A stretch of DNA of 64,000 nt. Origin: Chitinophagaceae bacterium (lineage in GTDB: Bacteria; Bacteroidota; Bacteroidia; Chitinophagales; Chitinophagaceae). The notes under the pieces were generated by a model. The model searched no databases. It was not told where the DNA came from and worked only from the letters and a program-made list of their open reading frames with translations. This document shows positions 6,044 through 29,116 of the stretch, piece after piece. The DNA lies in the NCBI GenBank assembly GCA_017853575.1, contig JAFMJI010000006.1, positions 62,001 to 126,000 of the forward strand. The letters are read 5' to 3'. Position 1 is the stretch's first letter; the number at the start of each line of letters is the position of its first letter. The translations under genes were made by a program, and so were the position numbers.

Positions 6044-7029
6044 TATGATTGGGAGGCAGAAGCTTCTTCCCATCTGCCCATTCTTGCAAATTTTTCTATT
6101 CTCTCATCGATTCTTTGTTCAGGGTCGATGTTCTTGAGCTCTTCAATGGATTTGACTACTTGGTCTTTAAGCATGGACGCTGCAAGATCATGGTCCCAAT
6201 GTGCACCACCCAATGGTTCGGGAATGACTCCATCTACCAATCCAAATTTGAGCATATGCTCTGAAGTAAGTTTAAGTTCTTCGGCAGCTTTTTCTTTTTG
6301 ATCCCAGCTTCTCCATAAAATAGAGCTGCAGCTTTCAGGAGAGATTACGGTATACCAAGTATTCTCCATCATGAAAACTTTATCACCTACGCCAATTCCC
6401 ATTGCACCGCCGCTTGCACCTTCTCCGATGATCACGCAAATAACCGGAACCTTCAAGCGAAGCATTTCATAAATATTTCTGGCAATGGCTTCTCCCTGTC
6501 CGCGCTCTTCTGCTTCAATTCCCGGAAATGCACCTGGTGTATCAACCAATGTTACAATTGGTTTATTGAATTTTTCAGCAAGCTTCATTAATCGAAGTGC
6601 TTTTCTGTATCCCTCCGGATTTGCCATGCCGAAGTTTCTAAGTTGTCTGGTTTTTGTATTGGTTCCTTTTTGTTGTCCAAGGATCATGACGGTTTGACCA
6701 TCGATCTTTCCAAATCCTCCAACAATGGCTTTATCATCTTTAAAATTTCTGTCGCCATGCATTTCAACAAAATCAGTGCAGATTCTTTCAATGTATGATA
6801 GGGTATATGGACGATCAGGGTGTCTGCTCAATTGAACTTTTTGCCAGCTGGTTAGTCCTTTGTTGATCTCTTGTTTTTTCTCTAAAATTTTTTCTTCCAA
6901 TTGTTGGATGGATGAACTGAGATCTACTTTATTTTTTTCTGCCGTTGCCTTGAGTTGGTCAATTTGATCGTAGAGATCCTTGATTGGTTTTTCGAAATCC
7001 AAATATTGTCTAGCGCTGCTTTCTGCCAT
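6043..7029 (-). CDS. accA: Acetyl-CoA carboxylase carboxyltransferase subunit alpha
   Basis: 328 residues, close to the E. coli length. The N-terminal coiled region ([19 protein letters not shown], then a Lys/Glu-rich helix) is followed by the carboxyltransferase core: [71 protein letters not shown] and [15 protein letters not shown]. It transfers the carboxyl group from biotin to acetyl-CoA, the first step of fatty acid synthesis, together with AccD, which is not in the window. It is the first gene of the accA-dapA-ABC unit; a TACCTTTA sequence (7061-7054 on the minus strand) is a candidate -7 element. Confidence 0.97.
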
Positions 7030-7158
7030 AGTTTTGGTTTGGTTTCAGGGCTGTAAAGGTAAAGAATTATACAGAATTGTATTGACGCATTAAGAAGCTG
7101 AAATTCAATCAAATACGACTTGTTACCTGGTCTCGTAAACTTTCAATAGTTTAGTTGG

Positions 7159-7863
7159 ATGATTGGGATACTTATGCAGCTTTTGATTTCTTATGTCATT
7201 CTCTATTTTGTAGATGACAGAAGGTTGGAGGCATTGGGGGTTCTTTCCAGTAAGAAACGGTTGATTGATTTTTCCATTTTATTCTCTGCTTCTGTGGTTG
7301 CGTGTTCATCTGGGTTTATTCTCAGAATGCTACTTGCTAAAGAAAATTGGGGATTGAATCCTTTGTTCAACTTAAAATTATTGGCAGATGGCATTTGGTG
7401 GAATATAAAATCAGTATTGTTTGAGGAGTTGATTTTCAGGGCTGCACTCTTGTTTTTGTTGATGAAATGGTTTGGTAAAAACATTGCTTTATTGGTCTCT
7501 GCAACTTCCTTTGGGATTTATCATTGGTTCAGTTTGGAAGTATTTGGAAATCCATGGATGATGTTGCAGATTTTTCTTTCATCTGCATTGGTTGGAATTG
7601 TTTGGGCTTGGGCATTTGTAAAATCTCAATCCATTTATTCTGCAATTGCCATGCATTTGGGTTGGAATTTTACGCAGAATTTTATTTTTTCAAATGGACC
7701 AATTGGAAAGGGGATATGGATGCTCTTGGAACCGAGTCCGCAAATAACAGTTGGATATTTCACCTATTTTTTGGTCTTTTATTTTCCGATGATTCTGTTC
7801 ATCGGGTTGAGTATATTTTTATTGATGATACGCAACAAAAAAGGCTCAGCGATTTCTCAGTGA
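7159..7863 (+). CDS. CPBP family intramembrane metalloprotease (Abi)
   Basis: 234 residues with several membrane helices. It carries the CPBP (PF02517) motifs: EE at 89-90 with Arg94 (FEELIFRAAL), His122 in FGIYHWF, and His166/Asn170 in HLGWNFTQNF. Family members are intramembrane proteases related to Rce1, some tied to bacteriocin self-immunity; no bacteriocin gene is seen nearby, so the substrate is unknown. The stop codon and the last codons lie inside a palindromic terminator shared with the convergent tRNA-Asp gene. Confidence 0.88.
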   Translation: MIGILMQLLISYVILYFVDDRRLEALGVLSSKKRLIDFSILFSASVVACSSGFILRMLLAKENWGLNPLFNLKLLADGIWWNIKSVLFEELIFRAALLFLLMKWFGKNIALLVSATSFGIYHWFSLEVFGNPWMMLQIFLSSALVGIVWAWAFVKSQSIYSAIAMHLGWNFTQNFIFSNGPIGKGIWMLLEPSPQITVGYFTYFLVFYFPMILFIGLSIFLLMIRNKKGSAISQ

Positions 7864-7870
7864 GCCTTTT
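7837..7870. terminator. Bidirectional terminator overlapping the CPBP 3' end
   Basis: AAAAGGCTCA (7839-7848) and TGAGCCTTTT (7861-7870) form a perfect 10-bp stem with a 12-base loop. On the minus strand it is followed by a run of six T, making a strong terminator directly after tRNA-Asp. On the plus strand it can serve the CPBP gene, although its left arm and loop are codons of that gene and its right arm holds the stop codon. Confidence 0.85.
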
Positions 7871-7871
7871 G

Positions 7872-7945
7872 CGGACCGGACGGGACTCGAACCCGCGACC
7901 TCCGCCGTGACAGGGCGGCATTCTAACCAACTGAACTACCGATCC
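7872..7945 (-). tRNA. tRNA-Asp (GTC)
   Basis: A 74-base cloverleaf: acceptor stem GGATCGG/CCGGTCC with discriminator G, D-arm GTTC..GAAT, anticodon stem CCGCC/GGCGG around loop CTGTCAC (anticodon GTC), and T-arm GCGGG-TTCGAGT-CCCGT. The CCA end is not encoded. A strong terminator follows within a few bases. Confidence 0.97.
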
Positions 7946-7959
7946 TTTCAATTGGGATG

Positions 7960-7967
7960 CAAATGTA
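7960..7967 (-). promoter_or_regulatory. -7 element of the tRNA-Asp promoter
   Basis: TACATTTG on the minus strand fits the Bacteroidetes -7 consensus TAnnTTTG and lies 14 bases before the tRNA 5' end. A well spaced -33 TTTG is not evident. Confidence 0.6.
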
Positions 7968-8000
7968 TAAATTTCCTTTCAATTCAGAAAATCATGTCTT

Positions 8001-8375
8001 TTATATATCCAACCCCAACTCACGCTCAATTTCTTCCATTTGAACTATATCCCAGGCCTCAGATTCTGTGGGCGTAACATGAAACCGGTCAAACTCATTG
8101 TCAATGTTCAATTGCTCCTTCAAATTCGACGATAACTCACAAGCCACAAATGATTTTTGTTGTTCATATTGTGCATGACGAATTCTCTCAAGTAGATCTG
8201 CGAAGCTTGGATCAATGGTCTGGACATTCTTAAAATTCAAAACAAGATTTTTCAATTCTTTGCTTTGCTTTTCATCAATGATCTGCATCAGCATTGCTGC
8301 CATATTAGCAGATAATTCTTTTTCTTCAATGGTTATGACATGAAATACTTCCTTGGTATCAATTTTGACCCTCAT
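8001..8375 (-). CDS. STAS-domain protein
   Basis: 124 residues from the ATG at 8375 (MRVKIDTKEVFHVITIEEKE); the frame extends to 8417, but a good -7 element at 8413-8406 makes the longer start unlikely. The fold pattern beta-beta-alpha, with LKNLVLNFKNVQTIDPSFADLLERI, fits a STAS domain as in anti-sigma factor antagonists; the Ser of DPSFADLL is near the position of the phosphorylated Ser in SpoIIAA-like proteins. No anti-sigma factor or phosphatase gene is adjacent, so its partner is unknown. It is divergent from clpC. Confidence 0.7.
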   Translation of the reverse strand: MRVKIDTKEVFHVITIEEKELSANMAAMLMQIIDEKQSKELKNLVLNFKNVQTIDPSFADLLERIRHAQYEQQKSFVACELSSNLKEQLNIDNEFDRFHVTPTESEAWDIVQMEEIERELGLDI

Positions 8376-8405
8376 TGCTGTATGGTTTTCATCTTTGAAA
8401 CTGTG

Positions 8406-8413
8406 CAAAGATA
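8406..8413 (-). promoter_or_regulatory. -7 element upstream of the STAS gene
   Basis: TATCTTTG on the minus strand matches TAnnTTTG and predicts a short leader of about 25 bases before the ATG at 8375. No clear -33 element is seen at the usual distance. Confidence 0.5.
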
Positions 8414-8525
8414 CCAATTTGTTTAAGTTGGGTTAATGTTGACAAATAAGCGATTCCACACGATCCGGGATCGATTTCATTTGAGAATTATTCGGTATTA
8501 TTGTAAAGAGCTAACAAATAAAAAT

Positions 8526-11060
8526 ATGGACAATAATTTTTCGGCACAGGTAAAGGAAATCATTTCCTACAGCAGAGAAGAGGCGTTGAGGCTGGGGAAC
8601 GACTTTATTGGCACAGAGCATCTTTTGTTAGGAGTTATTCGTGAGGGAGAAAATACTGCATTGAAAGTGTTGCAAAACCTCAATGTAGATTTATACGAAC
8701 TCAGGAAAGAAGTGGAAATGGCAGTGAAAGATAAATCAGGAAAAAATATTCAAAATATCAACAGTTTGCCTCTAACCCGTCAGGCGGAGAAAGTAATTCG
8801 TGTTACTGTTCTTGAAGCCAAAGCGCTGAAGAGTCCAATGGTTGAAACTGAACACCTACTGCTCTCCATCCTCAAAAACAAAGAAAACATTGCAACCCAA
8901 ATCCTCAATCAATTTGATGTGGACTATGATATGTTCAGAAATGAGCTGGGTGTGGTTAGAAGCAATGATGTGAAAAGTGAGTTTTCTGACGAACCCGAGG
9001 AGGAATTTGAAGATGAGAAAAAAGGCGCTCAAGCAAAAGCGCGTCCTGCTTCTACAGGTTCAAAAAGCAAAACGCCTGTATTGGATAATTTCGGAAGAGA
9101 TATTACCAAGCTTGCAGAATCCGGATCATTGGATCCGATCGTTGGCAGAGAAAATGAAATTGAAAGAGTTTCACAAATTCTCTCAAGAAGAAAGAAAAAC
9201 AATCCCATATTAATTGGTGAACCCGGAGTAGGTAAAACTGCAATCGTAGAAGGACTCGCTTTACGAATTGTGCAAAGAAAAGTTTCCCGTGTGCTGTTTG
9301 ATAAACGAGTTGTTTCACTTGATCTTGCTGCATTGGTGGCCGGTACCAAATACCGCGGACAATTTGAAGAACGCATGAAAGCCATCATGACGGAATTGGA
9401 GAAAAACCGGGATGTGATTTTATTCATTGATGAAATCCATACCATTGTAGGTGCTGGTGGCGCCAGTGGCTCTCTGGATGCTTCCAATATTTTCAAGCCT
9501 GCACTTTCAAGAGGTGAGTTGCAATGTATTGGTGCATCAACACTCGATGAATACCGCATGCACATTGAAAAAGATGGTGCATTGGATAGGAGATTTCAAA
9601 AAGTAATGGTTGAACCTCCTTCAGTTGATGAGACCATTCAAATACTCAACAATATCAAATCTAGATACGAAGATTATCATAGTGTAGATTATTCCAACGA
9701 TGCAATTGAAGCATGCGTGAAATTGAGTGATCGATACATGACAGATCGTTTATTGCCAGACAAAGCAATTGATGTGTTGGATGAAGTAGGTGCCCGTGTT
9801 CATTTAAAGAACATCAATGTTCCTGAAGATATCATTGACCTCGAGAAAAAAATCGAAGACATCAAACTTGAAAAAAATAAAGTTGTAAAGAGTCAGCGTT
9901 TTGAAGAAGCTGCAAGTTTGAGAGACCGAGAGAAAAAACTTCAAGAAGAATTGGAGGCCGCAAAAAATTCTTGGGAAGAGGAATCCAAACACAAACATTA
10001 TCCTATTTCAGAAGAAGATATTGCTGAAGTAGTGAGCATGATGACAGGCATTCCTGTTAAACGTATGGTGCAGGCAGAGACAGAGAAATTGAGGAATATG
10101 TCTGTCGAAATGAAAGGCATGGTTGTGGGTCAGGATGAAGCCATCTCAAAGGTTGTGAAAGCCATTCAGCGTAACCGAGTTGGTTTAAAAGACCCCAAGA
10201 AACCAATTGGTACATTTATTTTCCTTGGTCCAACCGGTGTTGGTAAAACAGAGTTGGCGAGAGCACTTTCCAGAAATATGTTTGACTCTGAAGATGCATT
10301 GATTCGCATTGACATGAGTGAATACATGGAAAAATTCACTGTAAGCAGATTGATTGGTGCTCCTCCCGGTTATGTTGGTTATGAAGAAGGTGGACAGTTA
10401 ACTGAACGTGTTAGAAGAAAGCCATATTCTGTCATCTTGTTGGATGAAATAGAAAAGGCGCATCCTGACATCTATAATATTCTCTTACAGGTATTAGATG
10501 ATGGACAATTGACCGATGGACTTGGACGAAAAGTTGATTTCAAGAATACGCTGATCATCATGACATCTAATATTGGCGTTCGTCAATTGAAAGATTTTGG
10601 TGATGGTGTTGGATTTGCAACTTCAGCTCGCCAAGCCAACGCAGAAGAGGCGAATAAGGCTGTCATTGAAAAAGCACTCAAGCGTACGTTCTCTCCTGAA
10701 TTTCTGAACAGGGTGGATGATGTGATCATTTTCAATTCTCTTGAAAAGGAGCATATTTTCCAAATCATAGATATTCTCATGAAAGGCGTGTTGAAAAGAC
10801 TCAGCACACTTGGCTTTACGTTGGAATTGACCAATGAAGCAAAGGAGTTTATTGCTGAAAAAGGATATGACCAACAATTTGGTGCAAGACCACTTCACAG
10901 GGCGATTCAAAAATATCTCGAAGATCCTTTGGCAGAAGAGATTTTGAACATGAGTATCAAGGAAGGGGATGTGATGATTGCTGATTTGGATAAAGAAAAC
11001 CAAAAGATTACGTTTACTATCAAACAGCATCCAGAAAAGAAGGAGAAATCTAAAGTTTGA
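8526..11060 (+). CDS. clpC: ATP-dependent Clp protease ATP-binding subunit ClpC
   Basis: 844 residues from ATG 8526 (MDNNFSAQVKEIISYSREEA); the frame extends upstream, but this is the usual ClpC N-terminus. Two Clp-N repeats (EHLLLGVIREGEN and TEHLLLSILKNKEN) precede NBD1 with GEPGVGKT (about 231-238) and a sensor-rich D1 core. A short UVR-type middle domain (LRDREKKLQEELE) follows, then NBD2 with GPTGVGKT and the VGF tripeptide that in ClpC/ClpX-type unfoldases docks onto ClpP. It unfolds substrates for ClpP; clpP is not in the window, but the ClpS adaptor is at 46319. A terminator hairpin follows at 11084. Confidence 0.96.
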   Translation: MDNNFSAQVKEIISYSREEALRLGNDFIGTEHLLLGVIREGENTALKVLQNLNVDLYELRKEVEMAVKDKSGKNIQNINSLPLTRQAEKVIRVTVLEAKALKSPMVETEHLLLSILKNKENIATQILNQFDVDYDMFRNELGVVRSNDVKSEFSDEPEEEFEDEKKGAQAKARPASTGSKSKTPVLDNFGRDITKLAESGSLDPIVGRENEIERVSQILSRRKKNNPILIGEPGVGKTAIVEGLALRIVQRKVSRVLFDKRVVSLDLAALVAGTKYRGQFEERMKAIMTELEKNRDVILFIDEIHTIVGAGGASGSLDASNIFKPALSRGELQCIGASTLDEYRMHIEKDGALDRRFQKVMVEPPSVDETIQILNNIKSRYEDYHSVDYSNDAIEACVKLSDRYMTDRLLPDKAIDVLDEVGARVHLKNINVPEDIIDLEKKIEDIKLEKNKVVKSQRFEEAASLRDREKKLQEELEAAKNSWEEESKHKHYPISEEDIAEVVSMMTGIPVKRMVQAETEKLRNMSVEMKGMVVGQDEAISKVVKAIQRNRVGLKDPKKPIGTFIFLGPTGVGKTELARALSRNMFDSEDALIRIDMSEYMEKFTVSRLIGAPPGYVGYEEGGQLTERVRRKPYSVILLDEIEKAHPDIYNILLQVLDDGQLTDGLGRKVDFKNTLIIMTSNIGVRQLKDFGDGVGFATSARQANAEEANKAVIEKALKRTFSPEFLNRVDDVIIFNSLEKEHIFQIIDILMKGVLKRLSTLGFTLELTNEAKEFIAEKGYDQQFGARPLHRAIQKYLEDPLAEEILNMSIKEGDVMIADLDKENQKITFTIKQHPEKKEKSKV

Positions 11061-11085
11061 TAACGCTCACAATCAAATAACTTTG
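11056..11085 (+). promoter_or_regulatory. Promoter of the sua5-type gene (-33 and -7)
   Basis: TTTG at 11056-11059, overlapping the clpC stop codon, and TAACTTTG at 11078-11085, separated by 18 bases, match the Bacteroidetes consensus. The predicted start of transcription, around 11090-11093, lies inside the clpC terminator stem, so transcripts from here would lack the left arm of that hairpin. Confidence 0.7.
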
Positions 11086-11112
11086 CCGTGACAATTGTCG
11101 CGGCATTTTTTT
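11084..11112 (+). terminator. clpC terminator abutting the sua5 start codon
   Basis: TGCCGTGACAA (11084-11094) and TTGTCGCGGCA (11095-11105) are complementary with one G:T pair, and seven T follow, ending right before the ATG at 11113. This is a strong Rho-independent terminator for clpC transcripts. Its first two bases overlap the -7 element of the next gene. Confidence 0.85.
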
Positions 11113-12066
11113 ATGTACCAAACTGAAATTGGAATTGATGTTTTAAAAGCAAAGCAACTTCTTGAAAAAGGGGAACTCGTTGCTATTCCAACTGAAACGG
11201 TATATGGTTTGGCTGGTAACGCATTGGATTCACATGCAGTTGCAAAAATATATGAAGCCAAAAATCGTCCACAGTTTAATCCATTGATTCTGCACGTTGC
11301 GAATCAAGAACAGCTAAATAGATATGTGGAGAATGTTCCGGATGACTGCAGGAAATTGATGGAAGCATTTTCACCAGGCCCCATCACATATTTGTTGGAT
11401 AAAAATTTACATGTTCCTGATGTAGTCACTGCTGGGAGTAAAAAGGTCGCTATCAGAATTCCCAATCATCCACTTACACTTCAGCTATTGAATTCACTCA
11501 GATTTCCACTTGCTGCACCAAGTGCTAATCCCTCTGGATATGTGAGTCCTGTTTCTGCTGAGCATGTATTACAAGGGCTTCAAGGAAGGATACCTTATAT
11601 ATTGAATGGTGGAAAAGCAAACATAGGTTTGGAATCCACCATTGTTGGTTTTAACAATGGAGAAGTCATTGTTCATCGATTAGGTGGTATAAGCATAGAG
11701 CAAATAGAAAAGGTTATAGGTAAGCCTGTGAAGATTTTAATTACGCATGATGCACCTGAAACTCCGGGACAGATGAAAAGTCATTACGCAACAAAGAAGA
11801 ATTTTATTGTTGGAGACCTTGAAAGTTTGAAGGCAGCATTCGCAGAAAAGAAAGTTGGTATTATTTCATTTAGCACAATTCAATCAGAGGATACTCCCCA
11901 TGTTGTATTGTCTTCAAAAGGTGATCTTGCAGAAGCTGCGTCAAAATTATTTGCTGCAATGCGGGAGATGGACAGCCAGAACGTGGATCTTATTTTGGCA
12001 GAATGGGTTCCAGATCAGGGCATCGGTAGAGCCATCAATGATCGGTTGAGAAGAGCAATTCATTAA
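11113..12066 (+). CDS. Threonylcarbamoyl-AMP synthase, Sua5 type
   Basis: Makes L-threonylcarbamoyl-AMP from threonine, bicarbonate and ATP for the t6A37 modification of ANN-decoding tRNAs. 317 residues from ATG 11113. The YrdC domain has LLEKGELVAIPTETVYGLAGNA, FNPLILHV, FSPGPITYLL, VAIRIPNHP and LAAPSANPSGYVSPVSA. A C-terminal Sua5 domain follows (MKSHYATKK linker to the GRAINDRLRRAI end), so this is the long Sua5/YwlC type rather than short TsaC. The product feeds MtaB (53068-54333), which modifies t6A further. The stop codon overlaps that of the convergent ABC-F gene. Confidence 0.93.
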   Translation: MYQTEIGIDVLKAKQLLEKGELVAIPTETVYGLAGNALDSHAVAKIYEAKNRPQFNPLILHVANQEQLNRYVENVPDDCRKLMEAFSPGPITYLLDKNLHVPDVVTAGSKKVAIRIPNHPLTLQLLNSLRFPLAAPSANPSGYVSPVSAEHVLQGLQGRIPYILNGGKANIGLESTIVGFNNGEVIVHRLGGISIEQIEKVIGKPVKILITHDAPETPGQMKSHYATKKNFIVGDLESLKAAFAEKKVGIISFSTIQSEDTPHVVLSSKGDLAEAASKLFAAMREMDSQNVDLILAEWVPDQGIGRAINDRLRRAIH

Positions 12067-18330: not shown

Positions 18331-21300
18331 ATGCTCAATGCAATCATTCGCTTTTCCGTCAGGAACAAGCTTATAGTAGGGTTATTTACACTTGCATGGA
18401 TCATATGGGGTATCATTGAGTTGATAAAACTTCCAGTTGATGCACTTCCAGATATCACTTCCAATCAGGTACAGGTCATTACCGTTTCTCCCACATTAGG
18501 ATCTCTTGAGGTAGAGCGGTTGATTACTTTTCCAATTGAACAGGCATCATCCAATATTCCTGGTATCAAGGAAATCAGATCAATTTCAAGGTTTGGACTC
18601 TCCGTGGTAACCATTGTATTTGACGATGACCGTGATATATATTGGTGCAGGCAACAGGTTACAGAGAGAATGTCGATCGTTAAAGATGATATTCCAAAAG
18701 AAGCAGGTACTCCAGAGTTGGCTCCTGTTACAACTGGATTGGGGGAGATTTATCAATATGTAGTTAGACCGAAAAAAGGATATGAACATAAGTTTGATTT
18801 AACTGAATTAAGGACCATTCAGGATTGGATCATTCGACGTCAGTTGCTTGGTACACCTGGAGTTGCAGATGTGAGCAGTTTTGGAGGAAAATTGAAACAA
18901 TATGAGGTGGCTCTTGATCCGGTTAAACTCAAAAGTATCGGAGTGACATTGCAGGATGTATTCAATGCGCTGGAGTCGAACAATCAAAACTCAGGTGCGG
19001 CTTATATCGAGAAGGGCCCCGCGCTTTTATTTATTCGAACAGAGGGTCTGGCTAAGAGCATTGACGAGATTTCAAATATTTATATTTCAAAATCAGCAAG
19101 TGGTACACCTGTATATGTAAGGGATGTTGCCAATGTACGTATTGGAAGTCCTATTCGTTATGGTGCATTGACTTTCCGTGATCAGGGGGAAGTTTCAGGA
19201 GCAGTTGTGTTGATGTTGAAAGGTGAAAATGCTTCGAAGGTTATCAAAGGCATCGAGGACAGAATGGAACAGATAAAAAAGACGTTGCCTGAAGGGGTCG
19301 AGGTTGAAACATTCTTAGATAGAAAGAAAATGGTTGGCAGAACACTGCATACAGTTCAAACAAATTTGTTAGAAGGCGCTTTGATTGTTCTTTTGATACT
19401 GGTATTGTTCTTAGGCAATTTGAGGGCTGGCTTGATCGTTGCTTCAGTGATTCCGTTGGCGATGTTGTTTGCTGTGGCGATGATGAATTTATTTGGGGTA
19501 TCTGGAAATTTAATGAGTTTAGGTGCCCTTGATTTTGGATTGATTGTTGATGGAGCTGTTATCATTGTTGAAGCAGTACTTCACCGATTACATGGTAATA
19601 AACATGAGGGACTACTGTTGCGACAACATCAAATGGACGAAACAGTAGAGCAATCTGCAGGAAGAATGATGGGAGCAGCTGTGTTTGGACAGATCATCAT
19701 TCTTATAGTATACATTCCTATTTTGAGTTTAACTGGTATAGAAGGTAAAATGTTCAAACCTATGGCACAGACGGTTGCCTTTGCTCTTGTAGGTGCATTT
19801 ATACTTTCGCTGACGTATGTGCCAATGATGACCAGTTTTGTGTTGAGCAAGAAATTATCTGGACATGATTCTTTTGCCGATAAATGGATGAATGCACTTC
19901 AAGTATCATTTAAAAATGCATTATCAAGGCTCATTTATCATCCAAAGAAAATTGTGTTAAGTGCCATTGTGTTATTTGCTGTGGCCATCATGATTGCATC
20001 GAGATTAGGAGGAGAATTTATTCCAGAATTAGAAGAAGGTGATTTCGCTATTGATGCAAGATTGATGACAGGGGCTTCACTAAATGAAACCATTGAATCG
20101 ACTCAGAAAGCAGTTGCTGAACTTCAAAAGTTTCCTGAAGTGTTGAATGTAGTAACAAGAATTGGTGCGAGTGAAATTCCTACAGATCCTATGCCCATTG
20201 AAATGACAGATATCATCGTAAATCTGAAAGATAAAAAGGAGTGGACGAGTGCTGAATCTTATGACGAGCTTGCCAATAAAATGAGTGCGGCCATTGGTAA
20301 AGTTCCTGGATTGACAGGTGGCTTTCAGTACCCTGTTCAAATGCGTTTCAATGAATTGATTGCAGGTGCCAAGCAAGATGTTGTGTGTAAAATTTTTGGA
20401 GAGAATTTAGATACACTTGCAAACTATGCAGAAAAATTTTCTAACATTATTAAACAAGTGCCTGGAGCCAAAGATGTTTTTGCAGAGCGAGTTACAGGCC
20501 TACCGCAAATCGTCATCCGATACAAGAAAAATGCAATAGCTGCATATGGATTAAATATAAAAGATGTGAACCGTATACTCCGTGCATCCTTTGCTGGTGA
20601 GAGTGCCGGGAAAATTTATGAAAATGAACGAAAGTTTGATTTGGTGGTAAGGTTGTCAGGCGATAGGAGAAATGATTTGGAGGACCTCAGAGCATTGATG
20701 TTGACCAATACTGATGGTGTGAGTGTTCCGTTAGAACAACTGGCAGACATTTCTATTGAAGACGGCCCCAATCAAGTACAAAGGGAAGATGCAAAACGCA
20801 GGATTACCATCGCATTTAATGTACGTGACAGAGATGTTCAATCTGTAGTAGAAGATGTTCGCAAGAAAGCAGAAAAAATTCAACTCCCTGCGGGGTACTA
20901 TGTGAAGTATGGTGGACAATTTGAGAATCTGGTTGAAGCAAAAGACAGACTATCTATCGCGGTTCCGATTGCGTTATTTTTGATTTTACTCATTTTATAT
21001 TTTTCATTCGGGTCACTCCGATATGGGTTGCTGATTTATACTGCCATTCCGCTTTCAGCTATTGGTGGAATAATTTTACTTTGGGCACGAGATATGCCTT
21101 TTAGCATTTCTGCAGGCATTGGATTTATTGCATTGTTTGGTGTAGCGGTACTTAATGGAATTGTTTTGATCAATGAATTCAATCGACTTAAGAAAGAAAG
21201 TGATATGGATATTCATGATTTGGTGATAAAAGGTACTGTAACAAGGCTTAGACCTGTTTTAATGACTGCAGCTGTTGCCTCACTTGGGTTTCTGCCCATG

Positions 21301-22680
21301 GCACTCAGTACAAGTTCTGGTGCTGAAGTACAAAGACCGTTGGCCACTGTTGTCATCGGGGGACTGATTTCTGCCACATTCCTTACGCTTTTTGTGTTAC
21401 CGGTTTTATTTGCATGGGTTGAAAAGAGAAAGTTGATTGTTCCCAAAGCAGCTACCATGTTGATCATTGGCTTGTTCTTTTCACAACTTGGGTTCACACA
21501 ACAGACAAAGAGCTTATCAGTTGATTCAATCATCTCTCTGGTTGACAGTAAATCTCTGTTGTTGAATATTTCAGAGAAAAATACTGAAGCCTATCGTTCC
21601 CTGAGATCGAGGCCAGTTGAAATTCCTAAGACCAATGTTGGGATAGAATACGGAAATATCAACAGTGCATTTAATGACACCAGGTTGTTTTTTAACCAAG
21701 GCTTTCAATTGCCATTCGTATATAAAAATCAACAAAGGCTTTATGATCAAAATATCAACGTAAGCATTTCACAATCAAATTTAACCAAAGCGGAATTGAA
21801 TTTGCGCGTCAGACAGATCTGCTATAATATTTTGGATCTCGACAGGAGAGATAAGATATTAACAGAAGTAGAGATGAATTTTGCAGAATGGTCTAGGGTT
21901 GCCACTATTCAGAAGGATCAGGGAGAAATCAATGCATCTGTACTGAATGCCATAAAAGTACAATCTGCTCAACAATCCATGCAAAAGCAATTATTGTCTG
22001 CAGAGAGAGATGGGTTGATAACAGAATTGAATGCTTATTTGAGAAATACTGAGAGCAGCATCGTGCCCTCCCCAGATTCCATTATTTTGACATCAATGAA
22101 CAGCAAATTCACAGAATTGTTGTCTCATCCTTTTTTAGAGTTATCTGATGCGTTGATTGCTCAAAGAAAAGCGTATATCAAAACTGAAAAAAATAAACTC
22201 TCACCTGATTTTAATTTGGGGTACAGCAATTTGTCTATTATCGGTTGGCAGACGCCAGATGGGTTGACACAGAAATATTATGGTGCAGGCACAAGGTTTG
22301 GGATTTATCAATTTGGTTTGGGACTTCCTATATTCAGTGGTGCAAACAAGGCAAGAATCAATGCTGCTAAAATTGTTTTGGAAATTGCAGAGCTGGATAG
22401 AAATGTACGAATCGACCAGCTTAATACTCAATACACCAAGCTATTGAATACGTATAAACAGCAAAAGGAAATTTATAATTATTATGAGAAGGTGGGTTTA
22501 AAGATGGCTGATGAAATGATCAGTCAGGCTGGAGTAAGATTCAAAAACGGTGATATCGCTTTTGCTGAATGGGCATTGTTGGTTAATCAATCTCTTCAAA
22601 TCAAAATTGCACATGCTGATATAATAAAGTCATTGCAATACTCTTTGGCTGAACTTAAATATTTAACAGAGAAAAAATAG
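18331..22680 (+). CDS. CusA/CzcA heavy-metal RND pump fused to a CzcC-like outer membrane factor
   Basis: 1449 residues in one frame. Residues 1 to about 1030 are a full HME-type RND transporter (MLNAIIRFSVRNKLIVGLFTL, GLPQIVIRYKK, two sets of helices). The helix-4 motif is DFG (401-403), DGAV (407-410), Glu414, the pattern linked with divalent-cation pumps rather than the CusA copper/silver pattern. From about 1042 a hydrophobic segment leads into a TolC/CzcC-like coiled region (LNLRVRQICYNILDLDRRD). Such fusions are known in Bacteroidetes. The outer membrane part would have to be exported behind an internal signal. Efflux of Co/Zn/Cd/Ni is the likely role (inference). The adaptor gene follows after 3 bases. 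Confidence 0.93.
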   Translation: MLNAIIRFSVRNKLIVGLFTLAWIIWGIIELIKLPVDALPDITSNQVQVITVSPTLGSLEVERLITFPIEQASSNIPGIKEIRSISRFGLSVVTIVFDDDRDIYWCRQQVTERMSIVKDDIPKEAGTPELAPVTTGLGEIYQYVVRPKKGYEHKFDLTELRTIQDWIIRRQLLGTPGVADVSSFGGKLKQYEVALDPVKLKSIGVTLQDVFNALESNNQNSGAAYIEKGPALLFIRTEGLAKSIDEISNIYISKSASGTPVYVRDVANVRIGSPIRYGALTFRDQGEVSGAVVLMLKGENASKVIKGIEDRMEQIKKTLPEGVEVETFLDRKKMVGRTLHTVQTNLLEGALIVLLILVLFLGNLRAGLIVASVIPLAMLFAVAMMNLFGVSGNLMSLGALDFGLIVDGAVIIVEAVLHRLHGNKHEGLLLRQHQMDETVEQSAGRMMGAAVFGQIIILIVYIPILSLTGIEGKMFKPMAQTVAFALVGAFILSLTYVPMMTSFVLSKKLSGHDSFADKWMNALQVSFKNALSRLIYHPKKIVLSAIVLFAVAIMIASRLGGEFIPELEEGDFAIDARLMTGASLNETIESTQKAVAELQKFPEVLNVVTRIGASEIPTDPMPIEMTDIIVNLKDKKEWTSAESYDELANKMSAAIGKVPGLTGGFQYPVQMRFNELIAGAKQDVVCKIFGENLDTLANYAEKFSNIIKQVPGAKDVFAERVTGLPQIVIRYKKNAIAAYGLNIKDVNRILRASFAGESAGKIYENERKFDLVVRLSGDRRNDLEDLRALMLTNTDGVSVPLEQLADISIEDGPNQVQREDAKRRITIAFNVRDRDVQSVVEDVRKKAEKIQLPAGYYVKYGGQFENLVEAKDRLSIAVPIALFLILLILYFSFGSLRYGLLIYTAIPLSAIGGIILLWARDMPFSISAGIGFIALFGVAVLNGIVLINEFNRLKKESDMDIHDLVIKGTVTRLRPVLMTAAVASLGFLPMALSTSSGAEVQRPLATVVIGGLISATFLTLFVLPVLFAWVEKRKLIVPKAATMLIIGLFFSQLGFTQQTKSLSVDSIISLVDSKSLLLNISEKNTEAYRSLRSRPVEIPKTNVGIEYGNINSAFNDTRLFFNQGFQLPFVYKNQQRLYDQNINVSISQSNLTKAELNLRVRQICYNILDLDRRDKILTEVEMNFAEWSRVATIQKDQGEINASVLNAIKVQSAQQSMQKQLLSAERDGLITELNAYLRNTESSIVPSPDSIILTSMNSKFTELLSHPFLELSDALIAQRKAYIKTEKNKLSPDFNLGYSNLSIIGWQTPDGLTQKYYGAGTRFGIYQFGLGLPIFSGANKARINAAKIVLEIAELDRNVRIDQLNTQYTKLLNTYKQQKEIYNYYEKVGLKMADEMISQAGVRFKNGDIAFAEWALLVNQSLQIKIAHADIIKSLQYSLAELKYLTEKK

Positions 22681-23818: not shown

Positions 23819-24136
23819 TCAACTCCTGTAATCTTCTCTTACTGGATTAAATACATCAATAAGTGTACAATCCTCGTGGGCAAGAGCGCTGTGTGGTACA
23901 TTTGAGGGAATTACTTGAATCATTCCTTCTTGCAGCAATACAGTTTCATGCCCAATTTTCATCTCCATTTTGCCCTTTAGCATGATGGTTATTTGCTCAT
24001 GGGGGTGTTGATGTAAGCCAAGTGTACTGCCTTTCTCTATCGTTACCCAACCGGTTGTTAGATTTTCACCATGAACATATTGCCCTGTGATACCTGGGGA
24101 TAATTCCTTTTTTTTAATGTCTTTGATTTGTGGCAT
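23819..24136 (-). CDS. Small single-domain cupin
   Basis: 105 residues from ATG 24136 (MPQIKDIKKKELSPG). It is a minimal cupin: GLHQHPHEQITIMLKG supplies the metal-binding histidines (42, 44) with Glu/Gln 47-48, and VPSNVPHSALA-like residues around His82 supply the last ligand. Such proteins bind Fe, Mn or Ni and may be isomerases, dioxygenases or sugar-binding proteins; sequence alone does not tell. It is the last gene of the five-gene cluster, 4 bases after the ATP-grasp-like gene, so a role in the same pathway is likely. Its stop is 4 bases from the stop of the convergent RND adaptor gene. Confidence 0.85.
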   Translation of the reverse strand: MPQIKDIKKKELSPGITGQYVHGENLTTGWVTIEKGSTLGLHQHPHEQITIMLKGKMEMKIGHETVLLQEGMIQVIPSNVPHSALAHEDCTLIDVFNPVREDYRS

Positions 24137-24140
24137 AAAA

Positions 24141-25334
24141 TTATTTTTCAAAATAAGCAACACTTCCACCTACCCACTCTTTGTCTTTGTTGTATCGTGT
24201 TCCGATCATTTTTCCTTTGCTCAATCTTGCAAGGTTTGTTATCAATAGTGGATTTTCTTCTCCTTCATTCCAAATATACATCATCCTTATTTCCGCTTTC
24301 GCCTGTCCATCTGGAGTTTCAATGCAGGGGGCGTAGTTGACTTTTTTTTGTAGGATCCAGTTTTCTTTATCTGTTATTTTTTTGATGTCTTCTGCAGTAA
24401 GGTCTATAATTACCCCTTGTCCTGCGAATGAAAACAAAGGCTTAAGCACGTAGTTTTCTAAATCATTTGGAATATTTTTTAATTCACTGAGAAAAAATGT
24501 TTCCGGTATATAACTATGTTTTAAATAAGGCAGTAAGTATTTTGAAATTTGATAAAACCAGTTTGGATGTGGAACCCACTCTACATCATAATCCTGTTGG
24601 ATGTTGATAATATTTCCCAGGCTTTCTTTTTCCTGTTTTAACTCATCAATGATTACACGATTATAAATACGTTTGATATATTTTCTTTCTCCATTGAGTT
24701 CATAGTAGAGTTTTCTTCCTTCCGCTTTTAGTGCTGAGATGCAAACAGGTTTAATGCCTATCAGTTTCTCAGTCATGTAAAAATCAATCCTGGTTTTTTG
24801 TTGATGGGGTCTTATTTCGAGAAGAATCACTTCATCTGGATTCAAATTCCCAACCAGCAATTTTTGTAAATCTTTTAGATAACTTTCTTTATCCAAGCCG
24901 TTAAAAAAACAGGAATAATTGTCTGGGATTTGAAAATGTTTTTCAAGAATTGAAGGGTAGATTCCCTGAAATGCATATAGCGAAGGGAATCCCTGTAATT
25001 CAATCAATGCAGGATAAAATTCATGGTTTTCATTGGTGCATATTCCAAAATCAAATACAAGACAATGAGGAAAGCTATTTTGATTTGGAAAGGATTCTCC
25101 TGCAGGAATCGCTTTGGATGTTTTTGACGTAAAATCAATTGATTTTATCTCTCCAATGATGTAATCGCAAGCAGAGATGATCTTTTCTTTCATCGTTTTG
25201 TCGATAAAGATGGGAGTCTCTGCAATTCTGAAATCAATTGCTCCCGGATGAAGATTGTTCAGTTCCTCTAAAAATGCAGTGTATTTTTCTTTGGTAAACG
25301 ATTGGTTATATGCTTTCCTGATGGCAGGGATCAT
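24141..25334 (-). CDS. ATP-grasp-like enzyme of unknown substrate
   Basis: 397 residues; I do not recognise a named family. The C-terminal third carries ATP-grasp landmarks: Lys298 in NYVLKPLFSFAGQGV with the glycine loop (303-308), the hinge WILQKKV (326-331), Glu348-Arg350 in AKAEIRMMYIW, and Asn367 in ITNLARLSKGKMIGTRYN, in the order expected for the lysine, nucleotide-binding and metal-binding residues. The N-terminal part (FDFGICTNENHEFYPALIELQGFPSL) would form the substrate domain. The start overlaps the upstream gene by 4 bases (ATGA), implying coupled translation. I infer a ligase that forms an amide or peptide bond in the pathway of this cluster. Confidence 0.62.
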   Translation of the reverse strand: MIPAIRKAYNQSFTKEKYTAFLEELNNLHPGAIDFRIAETPIFIDKTMKEKIISACDYIIGEIKSIDFTSKTSKAIPAGESFPNQNSFPHCLVFDFGICTNENHEFYPALIELQGFPSLYAFQGIYPSILEKHFQIPDNYSCFFNGLDKESYLKDLQKLLVGNLNPDEVILLEIRPHQQKTRIDFYMTEKLIGIKPVCISALKAEGRKLYYELNGERKYIKRIYNRVIIDELKQEKESLGNIINIQQDYDVEWVPHPNWFYQISKYLLPYLKHSYIPETFFLSELKNIPNDLENYVLKPLFSFAGQGVIIDLTAEDIKKITDKENWILQKKVNYAPCIETPDGQAKAEIRMMYIWNEGEENPLLITNLARLSKGKMIGTRYNKDKEWVGGSVAYFEK

Positions 25335-26170
25335 GAGAGCGAGTATGGATTGAGAATGCTTGAAATAGATTGCAAAATAAAATTCGGTAAAATCTGACTA
25401 TTGGTAAGACTGATTTTGTCTGGATCGTTCAAATGTGCAATCATGGATTCCCATTTTTCTAATCCATGGTGCTCAATAACATGTTGCTTCTTTTCTTCCT
25501 TCAATAGGTACATACTCATGCCTTCTGCATCTGCCTCTGGATGAAATTGTGTGCCAACCATGTAAGGATTGAATCGAATGGCCATGACTGCTCTTTCTAA
25601 GGGTACATGTGGACGTTCTTTTTCTATGCATAAGATCTCGCCACCCATTTGATGAACTCTTAGTTTATTGGGTTGAACAACTTGATAATCCCTGCTGTCA
25701 ACACCATAAAATGGATCTTGCAGTCCATCGAATATGGGATCAACTGTGTCATCGTGTTTAAGCATGTGAATAGGGAATACCCCAAATGAAGTAGATTTTC
25801 GTTTAATCACTTCAGCGATTTCAAAATACCTGCATGCCAATTGAAAAGAATGGCAAATCAAAAACACATATTTCTTTTTGATGTTATTAGGATTGCTGTT
25901 CCAATCCATCACAGACCCAATCCAATTGAAATATGCTTTTTCCCAGGAAGTTTCTTTGCTTTCTAGTGGGCTACCAGGACCACCGGATGATATGTATATA
26001 TCAAAATCGAGTGAAGGTATTTGAATTGATTTCCTGACTTCAAACTCAGTCCATTCCAAATGGGTATATTGATTGGTTTTGATGCGTTGCAGGATTTCTC
26101 TGATGCATCTCATTCCTTCATTTTTCACGCCCTCATTAAGGTCTAACACTGCAATTTTCAGGGTGCTCAT
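25331..26170 (-). CDS. Class I glutamine amidotransferase-like protein
   Basis: 279 residues. The class I GATase fold is seen from IAVLDLNEG at the N-terminus, through SSGGPGSP (61-68), to the nucleophile Cys106 in FLICHSFQLACRYF and His210-x-Glu212 in GTQFHPEAD, which complete a Cys-His-Glu triad. The elbow reads C-H-S-F-Q rather than C-x-G-x-Q, a difference that could alter ammonia release or point to hydrolase activity. About 50 residues follow the domain. The gene is not next to any known amidotransferase acceptor subunit other than the ligases of this cluster, so it may amidate or trim their product (inference). Confidence 0.85.
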   Translation of the reverse strand: MSTLKIAVLDLNEGVKNEGMRCIREILQRIKTNQYTHLEWTEFEVRKSIQIPSLDFDIYISSGGPGSPLESKETSWEKAYFNWIGSVMDWNSNPNNIKKKYVFLICHSFQLACRYFEIAEVIKRKSTSFGVFPIHMLKHDDTVDPIFDGLQDPFYGVDSRDYQVVQPNKLRVHQMGGEILCIEKERPHVPLERAVMAIRFNPYMVGTQFHPEADAEGMSMYLLKEEKKQHVIEHHGLEKWESMIAHLNDPDKISLTNSQILPNFILQSISSILNPYSLS

Positions 26171-26191
26171 CTTGCCTGCAAAGGTATTGTT

Positions 26192-27298
26192 TTAGAGGTT
26201 TGCGAGAAAATTCGATTCAATAAAAGCGGCGACTGCTTCATGTTGTTGGGTATCTTTAAATGCTTTTAATTGTCTGTCTGCCCCTGTACCTTTCTCAAGA
26301 ATCCGTTCAATATTTTTTAGCTCTTCTCTGCATCCAAGTTCATCAACCACATCATCAACAAAATCCAATAATTCCATGATGAGTTCTTTGGTTGGGACTT
26401 CCTTTTCAACTCCAAAGTCAATCAGTTTATCATCAATCCCATACCGAGATGCCCTCCATTTGTTTTCATTTACGAGTGCACGTGGGTATATCATGAAAGT
26501 TAAATTAGAGAGTCTGAGTTTAAATAATTTTGCACAAATGCATTGAAATAAAGCAGCAAATGCAACGCTTTCATCTACTGTAAGTGGCACATCGCATACC
26601 CTGAACTCAACTGTTCCATAAAATGGATGAACGCGTAAATCCCACCAAATCTTTTTTGCGTTATCAATGCAATTGGTTTTGATCAGAAGATTCACATAGT
26701 TCTCGTATGCACTGTAACTGTCGAAATAATCTGGTATCCCGGTTCTGGGGAATTTATCAAAAACCTTGGTCCGGTAGGATTTAAATCCGGTATTTCTTCT
26801 TTCCCAAAAAGGAGAGTTGGTGCTCAGTGCATATACATGTGGAAGAAAATATCTTGCAGCATTTGCAATGTGAATAGCCATTTCTTTTGAAGGCATCCCA
26901 ACATGCACATGCAATCCAAAGATCAAATTCGATCTTGCTGCATCTTGCATTTCATTGACAATCTCCTGATATCGCACATGATCCGTGATCAATTGTTTCC
27001 TCCAGGTACTGAATGGATGGGTGCCAGCAGCACCAACACTGAAGCCTTTTGAGCCTGCAATCTCTTTGATGGTTTTTCTTAAGTGTGTAATGTCTTTGCG
27101 TGCATTTTCAATGTTGCTGCATACATCTGTTCCAACCTCTACAACAGCCTGATGCATCTCGGCCTTCACTTTGTCTTTGAAGATTTTTTGTCCTTCGTTT
27201 ACAATTTGTTGTTCATGGCTAACCAACTCTTTTGAAGCTGGGTCAATCACCATGTATTCTTCTTCAATACCAATTGTGAAGATTTTATAATCAATCAT
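26192..27298 (-). CDS. Carboxylate-amine ligase, GCS2 family (YbdK-like)
   Basis: 368 residues from ATG 27298 (MIDYKIFTIGIEEEYMVIDP); the frame runs back to 27460 inside the neighbour, but the usual N-terminus and the one-base gap to the upstream stop decide the start. GIEEE (10-14), EMHQAVVEVGTDVC (47-60), GTHPF (92-96), the GLHVHVG box (128-134) and VEFRVCDVP are the glutamine-synthetase-like catalytic motifs of the TIGR02050/YbdK group. Relatives show weak glutamate-cysteine ligase activity. Here it likely joins an amino acid carboxylate to an amine as one step of the cluster's product. Confidence 0.92.
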   Translation of the reverse strand: MIDYKIFTIGIEEEYMVIDPASKELVSHEQQIVNEGQKIFKDKVKAEMHQAVVEVGTDVCSNIENARKDITHLRKTIKEIAGSKGFSVGAAGTHPFSTWRKQLITDHVRYQEIVNEMQDAARSNLIFGLHVHVGMPSKEMAIHIANAARYFLPHVYALSTNSPFWERRNTGFKSYRTKVFDKFPRTGIPDYFDSYSAYENYVNLLIKTNCIDNAKKIWWDLRVHPFYGTVEFRVCDVPLTVDESVAFAALFQCICAKLFKLRLSNLTFMIYPRALVNENKWRASRYGIDDKLIDFGVEKEVPTKELIMELLDFVDDVVDELGCREELKNIERILEKGTGADRQLKAFKDTQQHEAVAAFIESNFLANL

Positions 27299-27299
27299 A

Positions 27300-28271
27300 T
27301 TATTTATTTGAAGGATTAAGCAACGGTTGTTGATGGGAGCTGCGCTTGACAAATTCTCCCCATACAAGATTATCCCTTTTGTCTGAATGTTGTTGAGCCA
27401 ATTCAATAGCGTAGTTGGCTGCTGTTTCGACAACCCATTCAAAATTTTCTTTTCCAACACTTTTCAAGTCTGCATCTGGTGCCGGATTGCAAAAGTCGAT
27501 CGCATAGGGTATGCCATCTCTTACTGCCAATTCAACGGTGTTGAAATCATATCCCAGATATTGATTGATCTTCAATACAATCGATTCCATTTCTTTCAGC
27601 AGTTTTGAAGATGGTTTGTGCTCAGCTACATACCTCAGATGATGAGGGTTCCTTGGTTCATAGGGCATGATTCTGACATGCTTCCTTCCAATGCAATAGC
27701 AGCGGTAGTATTCTTCAAATACAATTTCTTCCTGCAGGAGCATTACCAGCTGACCTGTTTCTGCATGGCGCTCAAAAAATTCTTCCATGCTGTTCAACTT
27801 ATATACATTTTTCCATCCACCACCTGAAAAAGGTTTCATATAGGCAGGAAAACCAACATATTCAAATATTCCTTTCCAATCCAAAGGATAGGTGAGGTTG
27901 CTGAATGATTCACCAGAGGTGTCATCCGGCAGCTCCCTGGAAGGAAGAATAACTGTTTTTGGAACTGGCACACCAATTTTTGTTGCCAGTGCATTGTTGA
28001 AAAATTTTTCATCAGCACTGAACCAAAATGGATTGTTAATAACCGCTGTACCGCAAATAGCTGCATTCTTTAAAAATGCTCTGTAGAATGGAACATCCTG
28101 TGAAATTCTGTCAACGATCACGACATAATCATTGGAAGCTCCTTGAATTACTTTATCAATTTTAACAGGTTCAGCGATGATGCCTTTGACTTTTTTCTGG
28201 TTGATACGATCAACGAATGCTTCAGGGAAGGAGCGCTCCTTTCCATGGAGAATGCCAATTTTTTTAATCAT
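27300..28271 (-). CDS. ATP-grasp ligase (RimK/D-Ala-D-Ala-ligase-like)
   Basis: 323 residues. The central domain opens with IGVPVPKTVILP, and the ATP-grasp core shows Lys146 in FPAYMKPFSGGGWKNVYKL with the glycine loop (150-152), the QEE hinge (180-182), Glu247 in NTVELAVRDG and Asp259/Asn262 in AIDFCNPAPDAD for metal. It is the first gene of the five-gene minus-strand cluster and ends one base before the GCS2 gene. It should form a carboxylate-amine bond through an acyl-phosphate; the substrate is unknown. Of the two ATP-grasp proteins here this one is the more canonical. Confidence 0.85.
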   Translation of the reverse strand: MIKKIGILHGKERSFPEAFVDRINQKKVKGIIAEPVKIDKVIQGASNDYVVIVDRISQDVPFYRAFLKNAAICGTAVINNPFWFSADEKFFNNALATKIGVPVPKTVILPSRELPDDTSGESFSNLTYPLDWKGIFEYVGFPAYMKPFSGGGWKNVYKLNSMEEFFERHAETGQLVMLLQEEIVFEEYYRCYCIGRKHVRIMPYEPRNPHHLRYVAEHKPSSKLLKEMESIVLKINQYLGYDFNTVELAVRDGIPYAIDFCNPAPDADLKSVGKENFEWVVETAANYAIELAQQHSDKRDNLVWGEFVKRSSHQQPLLNPSNK

Positions 28272-28327: not shown

Positions 28328-29116
28328 ATGAATACGTTCCAAGATTTTACTATTCACCAGATTGCATCAGCTTCTCTCAACAGAATTGTACGGGCAGATT
28401 TCTATTTGCCTGAGCAACTACATATGGCAAATGGAATTGATGTTTTGTTTGTAAATGACGGCCAGGATTTGCTAAAAATGGATATACCTAAAATGATCAA
28501 TAGCGTGGAGCTAGGAGGAAATAGATTGATCATGGTAGCCATCCATGCAGGAACTGAACGTAAACAAGAGTACGGCGTGGCCGGGATTCCTGATTTTATG
28601 AATAGGGGGTCAAAGGCAGGGGAGTATTCAACATTTATTATGAATGAGTTGATTCCTTACTTGTATACCAACATTGGAACATCAATTATTCGAAATAAGT
28701 ATATCGCAGGATTTTCTTTGGGAGGCTTGATGGCCTTTGATCTTGCAATGGAATTTCCAATGGAATTTCAGGCGGCAGGTGTATTCAGTGGTTCATTCTG
28801 GTGGCGATCTAAAGATTTGAAGGATGGATATGTTGAGGAACGTGATCGAATTATGCATGCAAAAATCAGAACTAAAAGATCAAATAACCTTCAAAGGTTT
28901 TATCTCCAAACAGGTGCATTGGATGAAAAGGCGGATAGAAATAAAAATGGAATCATTGACTCTATCGATGATACATTGGATATCATAAAAGAATTAGAAC
29001 AAATAGGTTTTAACAAAGTACAACTCAGGTACGTTGAATTGCCTGATGGCAAACATGATGTGTCAACATGGAACAGGGCAATGCCTGAATTCTTGAACTG
29101 GTTGAGCTTGAAATAA
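28328..29116 (+). CDS. Alpha/beta hydrolase (Fes-like esterase) with EF-hand-like loop
   Basis: 262 residues, no signal peptide. The nucleophile elbow is GFSLGG (Ser130) and the likely histidine is His243 in LPDGKHDVSTW; the acid is probably Asp199 in QTGALDE. Directly after this Asp comes DRNKNGIIDSIDD (203-215), which fits the 12-residue calcium-binding pattern of EF-hand and dockerin loops. The overall form matches the enterochelin-esterase-like group (PF00756). It is divergent from the ATP-grasp/GCS2 cluster across 56 bases, so it may hydrolyse that cluster's product or precursor (inference). A strong terminator follows. Confidence 0.82.
   Translation: MNTFQDFTIHQIASASLNRIVRADFYLPEQLHMANGIDVLFVNDGQDLLKMDIPKMINSVELGGNRLIMVAIHAGTERKQEYGVAGIPDFMNRGSKAGEYSTFIMNELIPYLYTNIGTSIIRNKYIAGFSLGGLMAFDLAMEFPMEFQAAGVFSGSFWWRSKDLKDGYVEERDRIMHAKIRTKRSNNLQRFYLQTGALDEKADRNKNGIIDSIDDTLDIIKELEQIGFNKVQLRYVELPDGKHDVSTWNRAMPEFLNWLSLK

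Follow-up and report, generated by a model that had tools for sequence, protein, structure and literature searches.

Four enzymes encoded side by side in the analysed window (64,000 nucleotides of Chitinophagaceae bacterium contig JAFMJI010000006.1), termed AG1, GCS2, GAT and AG2 here, form one functional unit, as supported by their co-occurrence and repeated clustering in other Bacteroidota. We consider that they probably constitute a coherent Bacteroidota amidoligase pathway, the product of which would be small and intracellular, either a peptide of the gamma-glutamyl type or a peptide-amine conjugate. Together with a small cupin they lie on one strand in the order AG1-GCS2-GAT-AG2-cupin; the spacing of 1, 21, -4 and 4 bases given in the initial annotation was reproduced in full from the open reading frame (ORF) coordinates in the window. 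GCS2 has 368 residues when counted from an internal ATG (its longest ORF begins upstream at 27460), and the cupin start used is 24136, the longest ORF running from a GTG at 24169.

Table 1. Genes of the cluster and the adjoining esterase, with positions in the window.
Gene	Assignment	Position	Strand	Basis or remark
AG1	ATP-grasp ligase of RimK/LysX/ArgX/Ddl type	27300..28271	-	323 aa; predicted fold and invariant residues
GCS2	YbdK-family carboxylate-amine (gamma-glutamyl) ligase	26192..27298	-	PF04107, PRK13515, motif
GAT	Class I glutamine amidotransferase-fold enzyme	25331..26170	-	PF00117, intact Cys-His-Glu
AG2	Ligase with eukaryotic-type glutathione synthetase/glutathionylspermidine synthase (permuted ATP-grasp) fold	24141..25334	-	Predicted structure
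Cupin	Small cupin, lineage-specific accessory	23819..24136	-	PF07883
Esterase	Divergent esterase, PF00756	28328..29116	+	56 bases from AG1

Orthologues of AG1, GCS2, AG2 and GAT are present in 58, 51, 49 and 40, respectively, of 148 genomes of the phylum; G007 (35% identity) and G087 (33%) were excluded from 60 AG1 genomes, and G004 (33%) from 52 GCS2 genomes, before counting. AG1 and GCS2 are shared by 50 of the 148 genomes (eight have AG1 without GCS2 and one the reverse), AG1 and AG2 by 48 (ten and one) and AG1 and GAT by 40 (18 and none); the Fisher values for these pairs take no account of shared ancestry. All four genes are clustered in 17 genomes and at least two are adjacent in 45. The genes are also kept when apart: G126, G091 and G033 have all four, not all in one place, and family f22 retains scattered AG1, GCS2 and AG2 in seven of its eight genomes. 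This co-occurrence, even of unlinked genes, rules out a chance neighbourhood. Nine families are mixed for the presence of AG1, and in eight of these (f1, f3, f5, f10, f14, f17, f27 and f28) the genomes that lack AG1 also lack the other three genes; the ninth, f22, is the exception, as G144 has GCS2 and AG2 without AG1. Four f22 loci have an aromatic amino acid lyase gene next after AG1 instead (L223, L229, L244 and L245, four of 31 regions, had no AG1 ORF called and were left out of the gene order around AG1). The AG1 genomes that are without GAT (18 of the 58), GCS2 (eight) or AG2 (ten) thus indicate that some steps are dispensable or replaced. A search for AG1 and AG2 on plasmids gave no match.

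The 148 genomes therefore bear out the expectation of the initial annotation that the neighbours would be conserved together in relatives, but its five-gene unit holds for AG1, GCS2, GAT and AG2 and not for the cupin. The latter is a clear family member (PF07883, 50.2 bits against a cut-off of 27.2). Of 16 same-genus loci, 12 carry it close to AG2, as against none of 32 other relatives (within 1.5 kb on each side of AG2, with some contigs of these relatives ending early), and it is present in six of the 22 named loci that have an adjacent GAT-AG2 pair. Its narrow distribution rules it out as a core part; the cupin is a lineage-specific extra.

GCS2 matches PF04107 in Pfam with an E value of 2.8e-57 and NCBIfam PRK13515, the YbdK carboxylate-amine ligase family, with 521.9 bits (cut-off 371), and it aligns with PDB entry 1r8g (YbdK) at 5.3e-49; it may differ from other YbdK-family ligases in sitting in a multi-ligase operon. 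Invariant residues were read from alignments of 48 (AG2), 34 (AG1), 31 (GCS2) and 26 (GAT) sequences, subsets from which most near-duplicates had been removed by hand. In GCS2 the motif is G-I-E-E-E, with Gly10, Glu12, Glu13 and Glu14 invariant; a GhExE motif is described as the signature of GCS2/YbdK carboxylate-amine ligases (PMC2588565).

Neither ATP-grasp assignment of the initial annotation is backed by Pfam, but both were upheld by structure prediction. AG1 matches no Pfam family at E<=0.01, and its NCBIfam scores are under the cut-offs for rimK_fam (26.4 bits versus 143.4) and LysX (25.5 versus 275.6), so that its likeness to RimK and LysX is one of fold. The AlphaFold model (pLDDT 90) gave Ddl (1.0e-12), ArgX (3.6e-12) and RimK (4.1e-12) as the best Foldseek matches, and Lys146-Pro147, Gly150-Gly152, Glu247, Asp259 and Asn262 are invariant. 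This closeness to RimK, ArgX/LysX and Ddl would suit a modification system in which AG1 and GCS2 tail a protein C-terminus or a cofactor with amino acids in the manner of RimK or LysX. We regard this as quite unlikely: Ddl-type proteins match AG1 as well as RimK does, the fold class of AG2 is that of small-peptide ligases, and the window operon contains no carrier or precursor gene. Its genes are packed so closely, with 56 bases separating AG1 from the esterase, that no precursor peptide could be encoded between them, and the locus thus lacks the in-cluster precursor gene by which a RiPP or graspetide system is recognized, although a precursor might be encoded elsewhere.

Neither Pfam nor NCBIfam gives a match to AG2 at E<=0.01, which places it outside the sequence family of glutathione synthetase proper. 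Its AlphaFold model has a pLDDT of 94, and all 22 of its PDB matches at E<=0.001 belong to the glutathione synthetase/glutathionylspermidine synthase fold class, led by yeast glutathione synthetase (3.5e-13) and PDB entry 3n6x (6.6e-13) and including Escherichia coli YgiC (1.7e-11) and YjfC (1.3e-9). With TM-scores of 0.41-0.60 and sequence identities of 9-16% to the solved structures, the fold of AG2 does not reveal its substrate. In a profile search against PDB sequences AG2 reaches only YgiC (E 0.0077), so the resemblance to YgiC/YjfC and glutathionylspermidine synthase is one of fold and distant profile, and not of Pfam or NCBIfam family. Lys298-Pro299, Gly305, Gly307 and Glu112-x-Gln114 are invariant. 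AG2 and the CP_ATPgrasp_2-like gene of families f16 and f19 are probably distant relatives, judging from profile comparison: hhalign aligns them with an E value of 8.7e-4, at a probability of only 23%, and the profile of the latter gene matches 3n6x at 3.9e-7 over the whole sequence, with single stretches at 0.011 and 0.41, neither of which passes.

The AG2 model also matches the structure of Cp1B (PDB entry 9cjn; 1.8e-11), which is described as a glutathione-synthetase-fold ligase that makes a small amide in the fungal E-64 pathway (PMC12568646). That pathway belongs to another kingdom and has another ligase set, and the window cluster has no oxygenase gene of that kind.

A GCS2-family ligase encoded together with a glutathione-synthetase fold is the logic of glutathione biosynthesis, an analogy already drawn in the initial annotation and strengthened by the eukaryotic-type fold of AG2. 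Taken literally, the cluster would make glutathione or a second low-molecular-weight thiol, with GCS2 forming gamma-Glu-Cys, AG2 extending it and AG1 conjugating it. Indeed, the source genome has no match to the prokaryotic glutathione synthetase family (PF02955), and G109, the sole genome of the 148 without BshC, carries all four genes. Among genomes from the order and class of the source genome, two of 20 with AG1 have a strong PF02955 gene, versus eight of 17 others (p=0.023); the threshold of E<1e-50 for this comparison was set post hoc and retains ten genomes from 66 with any match. The contrast is gone over all 148 genomes (p=0.32), and the two loci inspected (L251 and L257) of the eight with PF02955 in AG1-less genomes are a different operon. 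Canonical glutathione synthesis was thus dropped as the thing replaced by the cluster, the PF02955 signal being weak and post hoc. BshC, of bacillithiol synthesis, is already present in 147 of the 148 genomes, including the source genome. In G076 this cluster exists in addition to a gene for prokaryotic glutathione synthetase, which has a GCS2-family gene one gene further along; as both gene sets are present, the cluster is no stand-in for glutathione synthesis in that genome. The cluster also differs from glutathione biosynthesis in adding a RimK/Ddl-type ligase, an amidotransferase-like enzyme and an esterase, and it shows no sign of cysteine use. The circumstantial evidence is mostly against glutathione, which is probably not the product, and we hold a thiol reading as a whole to be unlikely.

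GAT has the class I glutamine amidotransferase fold (PF00117, 33.6 bits against a cut-off of 22.8). Cys106, Gln110, His210 and Glu212 are invariant, the first, third and fourth forming the Cys-His-Glu triad. In G055 (family f17) and G093 (f28), where a search for GAT gave no match, an M29 peptidase gene fills the slot between GCS2 and AG2. This replacement favours a hydrolytic role for the slot, and on the strength of these two genomes hydrolysis by GAT is more likely than ammonia supply, for which the retained glutaminase-like Gln110 leaves room.

A ligase accompanied by a class I amidotransferase-fold enzyme also recalls amine utilization of the Puu type, in which PuuA gamma-glutamylates an amine and PuuD hydrolyses the gamma-glutamyl bond. 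GCS2 and GAT would then play these parts for an imported amine, and AG2 does have a sodium:solute symporter as its neighbour in L065 and as its fusion partner in L063. In L096 and L099 the genes next to AG2 include short-chain dehydrogenases, which are also consistent with this reading and are not explained by our best model. The symporter link is limited, however, to these two f26 loci (recurrent neighbours were annotated in part), the window cluster has neither an oxidoreductase nor a transporter, and two further ATP-consuming ligases would not be expected in catabolism, making this reading improbable. We likewise give little credence to a dipeptide osmolyte resembling N-acetylglutaminylglutamine, the system for which combines a ligase, an amidotransferase and a peptidase. 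Peptidase genes are found in or near the cluster, of the M17 aminopeptidase type in L077 (the member tested) and its relatives in L079 and L100 and of the M29 type in L058 and L083, and four loci have a further ATP-grasp gene. Peptidases are seen in just five of 61 regions, however, and the window cluster has no acetyltransferase and no class II amidotransferase.

For the amidoligase pathway that we prefer, we infer the ligase chemistry from family knowledge, and propose that all of the genes act together in the following order. GCS2 would activate a carboxylate, the likeliest being that at the gamma position of glutamate, and couple an amino acid or amine to it; AG1 would attach another residue via acyl-phosphate chemistry; and AG2 would couple the peptide carboxylate to the last amino acid or amine, much as glutathione synthetase adds glycine and glutathionylspermidine synthase adds spermidine. 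GAT would take off or swap an amide or gamma-glutamyl group, and the esterase may trim or turn over an ester or thioester form. More tentatively, the YbdK-type, RimK/Ddl-type and AG2 ligases could make a phylum-wide, undescribed Bacteroidota metabolite by glutathione-like chemistry, beside bacillithiol; AG2 may link an imported amine, given its fusion with a sodium:solute symporter in one of the genomes.

AG1 is found in about two-fifths of the sampled genomes, mostly with GCS2 (50 of 58) and AG2 (48 of 58); a product so widespread but of unestablished structure marks a genuine gap, and the few enzymes involved could be reconstituted in vitro. In bacteria, AG2 would represent a new family of the eukaryotic-type glutathione-synthetase fold. 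If the product were a thiol or an osmolyte, the picture of redox or stress physiology would change in a phylum nearly all of which has BshC. Among the matches listed in a literature search there was no paper describing this ligase set; a survey of amidoligase neighbourhoods by Iyer et al. (Mol Biosyst, 2009), reportedly dealing with the same kinds of domains to judge by its title, lay outside the coverage of the search.

An Amidohydro_3 gene lies between GCS2 and GAT in four of 22 named loci, and ten of 61 regions have one within the cluster or next to it; it was dropped as a pathway-specific enzyme, as homologues (E<=1e-20) occur in 111 of the 148 genomes. The esterase (PF00756, E 3.9e-24) was absent from the gene list of the initial annotation. 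It is a very constant neighbour upstream of AG1, present in 70 of the 71 named loci for which the upstream sequence extends to 2.6 kb or more, and G-x-S129-x-G-G and His242 are invariant in 15 sequences.

The initial annotation placed the five genes correctly: they are encoded on the minus strand and separated by 1, 21, −4 and 4 bases. Its assignments of the second, third and fifth genes also agree with our searches. Family searches place the second protein (GCS2) clearly among the YbdK-type ligases; the third (GAT) has the class I amidotransferase fold, and its Cys106, His210 and Glu212 do not vary among 26 sequences; the fifth is a Cupin_2 protein. The two proposed ATP-grasp enzymes, AG1 and AG2 (the first and fourth genes), needed testing because neither matched a Pfam family at E ≤ 0.01; AlphaFold models and structure matches nevertheless bore both out. 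For the AG1 model (34 sequences, pLDDT 90), E-values against Ddl, ArgX and RimK are near 1e-12. In the PDB, 22 entries match the AG2 model (48 sequences, pLDDT 94) at E ≤ 0.001, and every one is a eukaryotic-type glutathione synthetase or a relative, a glutathionylspermidine synthase, YgiC, YjfC or the E-64 ligase Cp1B. The source genome is 2.3 Mb in size and 99.6% complete.

One element had been overlooked: an esterase gene on the opposite strand, 56 bases upstream of AG1, encoding a Gly-x-Ser-x-Gly-Gly motif and a conserved His. Its family also carries an acidic pattern, D-R-N-x-N-x-x-I-D-x-x-D-D-T, invariant in 15 sequences, which we take to resemble a calcium-binding loop. We also examined the 80 named loci that matched AG1 best, out of at least 581 confirmed relatives. 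Of the 71 that extend 2.6 kb or more upstream, 70 encode the divergent esterase, and of the 68 that reach 3 kb or more downstream, 67 have GCS2 following AG1. Sequence was long enough in 55 loci to look for GAT and AG2, and 19 of these carry both inside about 9 kb; the two are adjacent in all 22 loci that contain both. The locus therefore consists of two sub-units, esterase–AG1–GCS2 and GAT–AG2, which are joined often, not always. Around AG2 we compared 61 neighbourhoods (48 from the phylum sample, three from the same order, nine of 16 same-genus matches and the window), and found AG1 in 40, GCS2 in 39 and GAT in 32. Immediately upstream of AG1 in those 40, an α/β-hydrolase is co-directional in 20 and divergent in 12. 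Two of 18 co-directional sequences (L062 and L064) may be non-catalytic, since the Gly-x-Ser serine is lost. A named Chitinophagaceae contig (L111) repeats the window order (PdxJ, DUF2911, esterase, AG1, GCS2, GAT, AG2, cupin and efflux gene), which suggests that the host belongs to that family or close to it. The RND efflux pump of the window has relatives of about 1450 residues in nearby genomes, and an outer-membrane factor looks to be fused at its C-terminal part.

Across 148 Bacteroidota genomes, orthologues of AG1, GCS2, AG2 and GAT occur in 58, 51, 49 and 40, respectively, with AG1 present in 40/40 GAT, 48/49 AG2 and 50/51 GCS2 genomes. All four are found in 28 genomes; 18 lack GAT only, four AG2 and two GCS2, while six have AG1 and GAT only and one GCS2 and AG2 only. 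Fisher values, which ignore ancestry, reach 2.6e-31; joint absence within families is more telling. Nine families are mixed for AG1, and in eight (f1, f3, f5, f10, f14, f17, f27 and f28) the AG1-less genomes also lack GCS2, AG2 and GAT. Only f22 departs from this: its genome G144 has GCS2 and AG2 without AG1. In f22, and in some f1 genomes (G126, for example), the genes are dispersed but mostly kept.

The set combines three ATP-dependent ligases of the acyl-phosphate type (one, AG2, with the glutathione synthetase/glutathionylspermidine synthase fold) with hydrolases and no precursor peptide gene, and so points to a small peptide-like compound that is built up step by step and turned over. By family knowledge (PMC2588565), GCS2 would use the γ-carboxylate of glutamate; the step order, the identity of the amines and the role of GAT we infer. 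The literature searched, which did not extend to the likeliest place, the amidoligase-neighbourhood survey of Iyer et al. (2009), gave no description of the gene set; within that scope the set is uncharacterised.

That the product is a second thiol is possible, though not favoured. These bacteria probably have bacillithiol, since BshC is encoded in 147 of the 148 genomes, that of the window included; a bacillithiol derivative is reported from a Bacteroidetes member in PMC6282198. The sole genome without BshC (G109, 160 contigs) has AG1, GCS2, AG2 and GAT, and G076 has the cluster together with a prokaryotic glutathione synthetase gene and, one gene further on, a GCS2-family gene. In a post hoc comparison within the same order and class, a strong PF02955 gene (E < 1e-50) was found in 2/20 AG1 genomes versus 8/17 others (p = 0.023), a contrast that is gone across all 148 genomes (p = 0.32). 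The strong PF02955 gene sits in another operon in both AG1-less genomes examined (two of eight; drawn from ten fetched regions). This operon encodes a prokaryotic-glutathione-synthetase-like ATP-grasp protein (two copies in L251, one in L257) and proteins of the N-formylglutamate amidohydrolase and MATCAP families.

An M29 peptidase gene occupies the GAT slot between GCS2 and AG2 in two genomes without a GAT match (G055 and G093), a hint that GAT is a hydrolase. In seven AG1 loci (three in f16, four in f19), AG1 stands in a row with a permuted-ATP-grasp-like gene, GAT and a PF00756-type esterase gene; an ATP-grasp_4-type gene comes next in all three f16 loci (Pfam assignments of the esterase and ATP-grasp_4 genes made in L240 only). 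Both families lack AG2; f16 also lacks GCS2, which in f19 is present but unlinked. Of the five permuted genes scanned among the seven, the two from f16 exceed the PF14403 cut-off and the three from f19 fall short of it. Their profile matches 3n6x, the second-best structural match of AG2, at 3.9e-7, and their invariant E-L-N motif aligns with E-D-N in 3n6x; on our reading, the invariant E112-x-Q114 of AG2 may correspond to that E-L-N motif. Subsets of the loci also contain an M17 aminopeptidase, an amidohydrolase, a sodium:solute symporter or short-chain dehydrogenases. The fusion or adjacency of AG2 and symporter could hint that the substrate is imported. The genes directly after AG1 in four f22 loci (L224, L226, L227 and L228) belong to a single aromatic amino acid lyase cluster; those of L226 and L228 fall in PF00221, and that of L228 exceeds the cut-off for histidine ammonia-lyase.

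Coordinates of features in the window and in the fetched loci
Region	Coordinates	Strand	Feature
Window	18331-22680		RND efflux pump ORF, 1449 aa
Window	28328-29116	+	Esterase
L062	12173-12895		Co-directional hydrolase
L064	11758-12471		Co-directional hydrolase
L063 (G125)	6637-9240		AG2 and complete sodium:solute symporter domain in one frame, 867 aa, no stop
L065 (G133)	8790-11369		Symporter gene and, 18 bases after it, AG2
L096	1426-2217		Short-chain dehydrogenase gene directly adjoining AG2
L099	8020-8721		Short-chain dehydrogenase gene directly adjoining AG2
L251	6478-11378		Other amidoligase operon, AG1-less genome
L257	4106-7126		Other amidoligase operon, AG1-less genome
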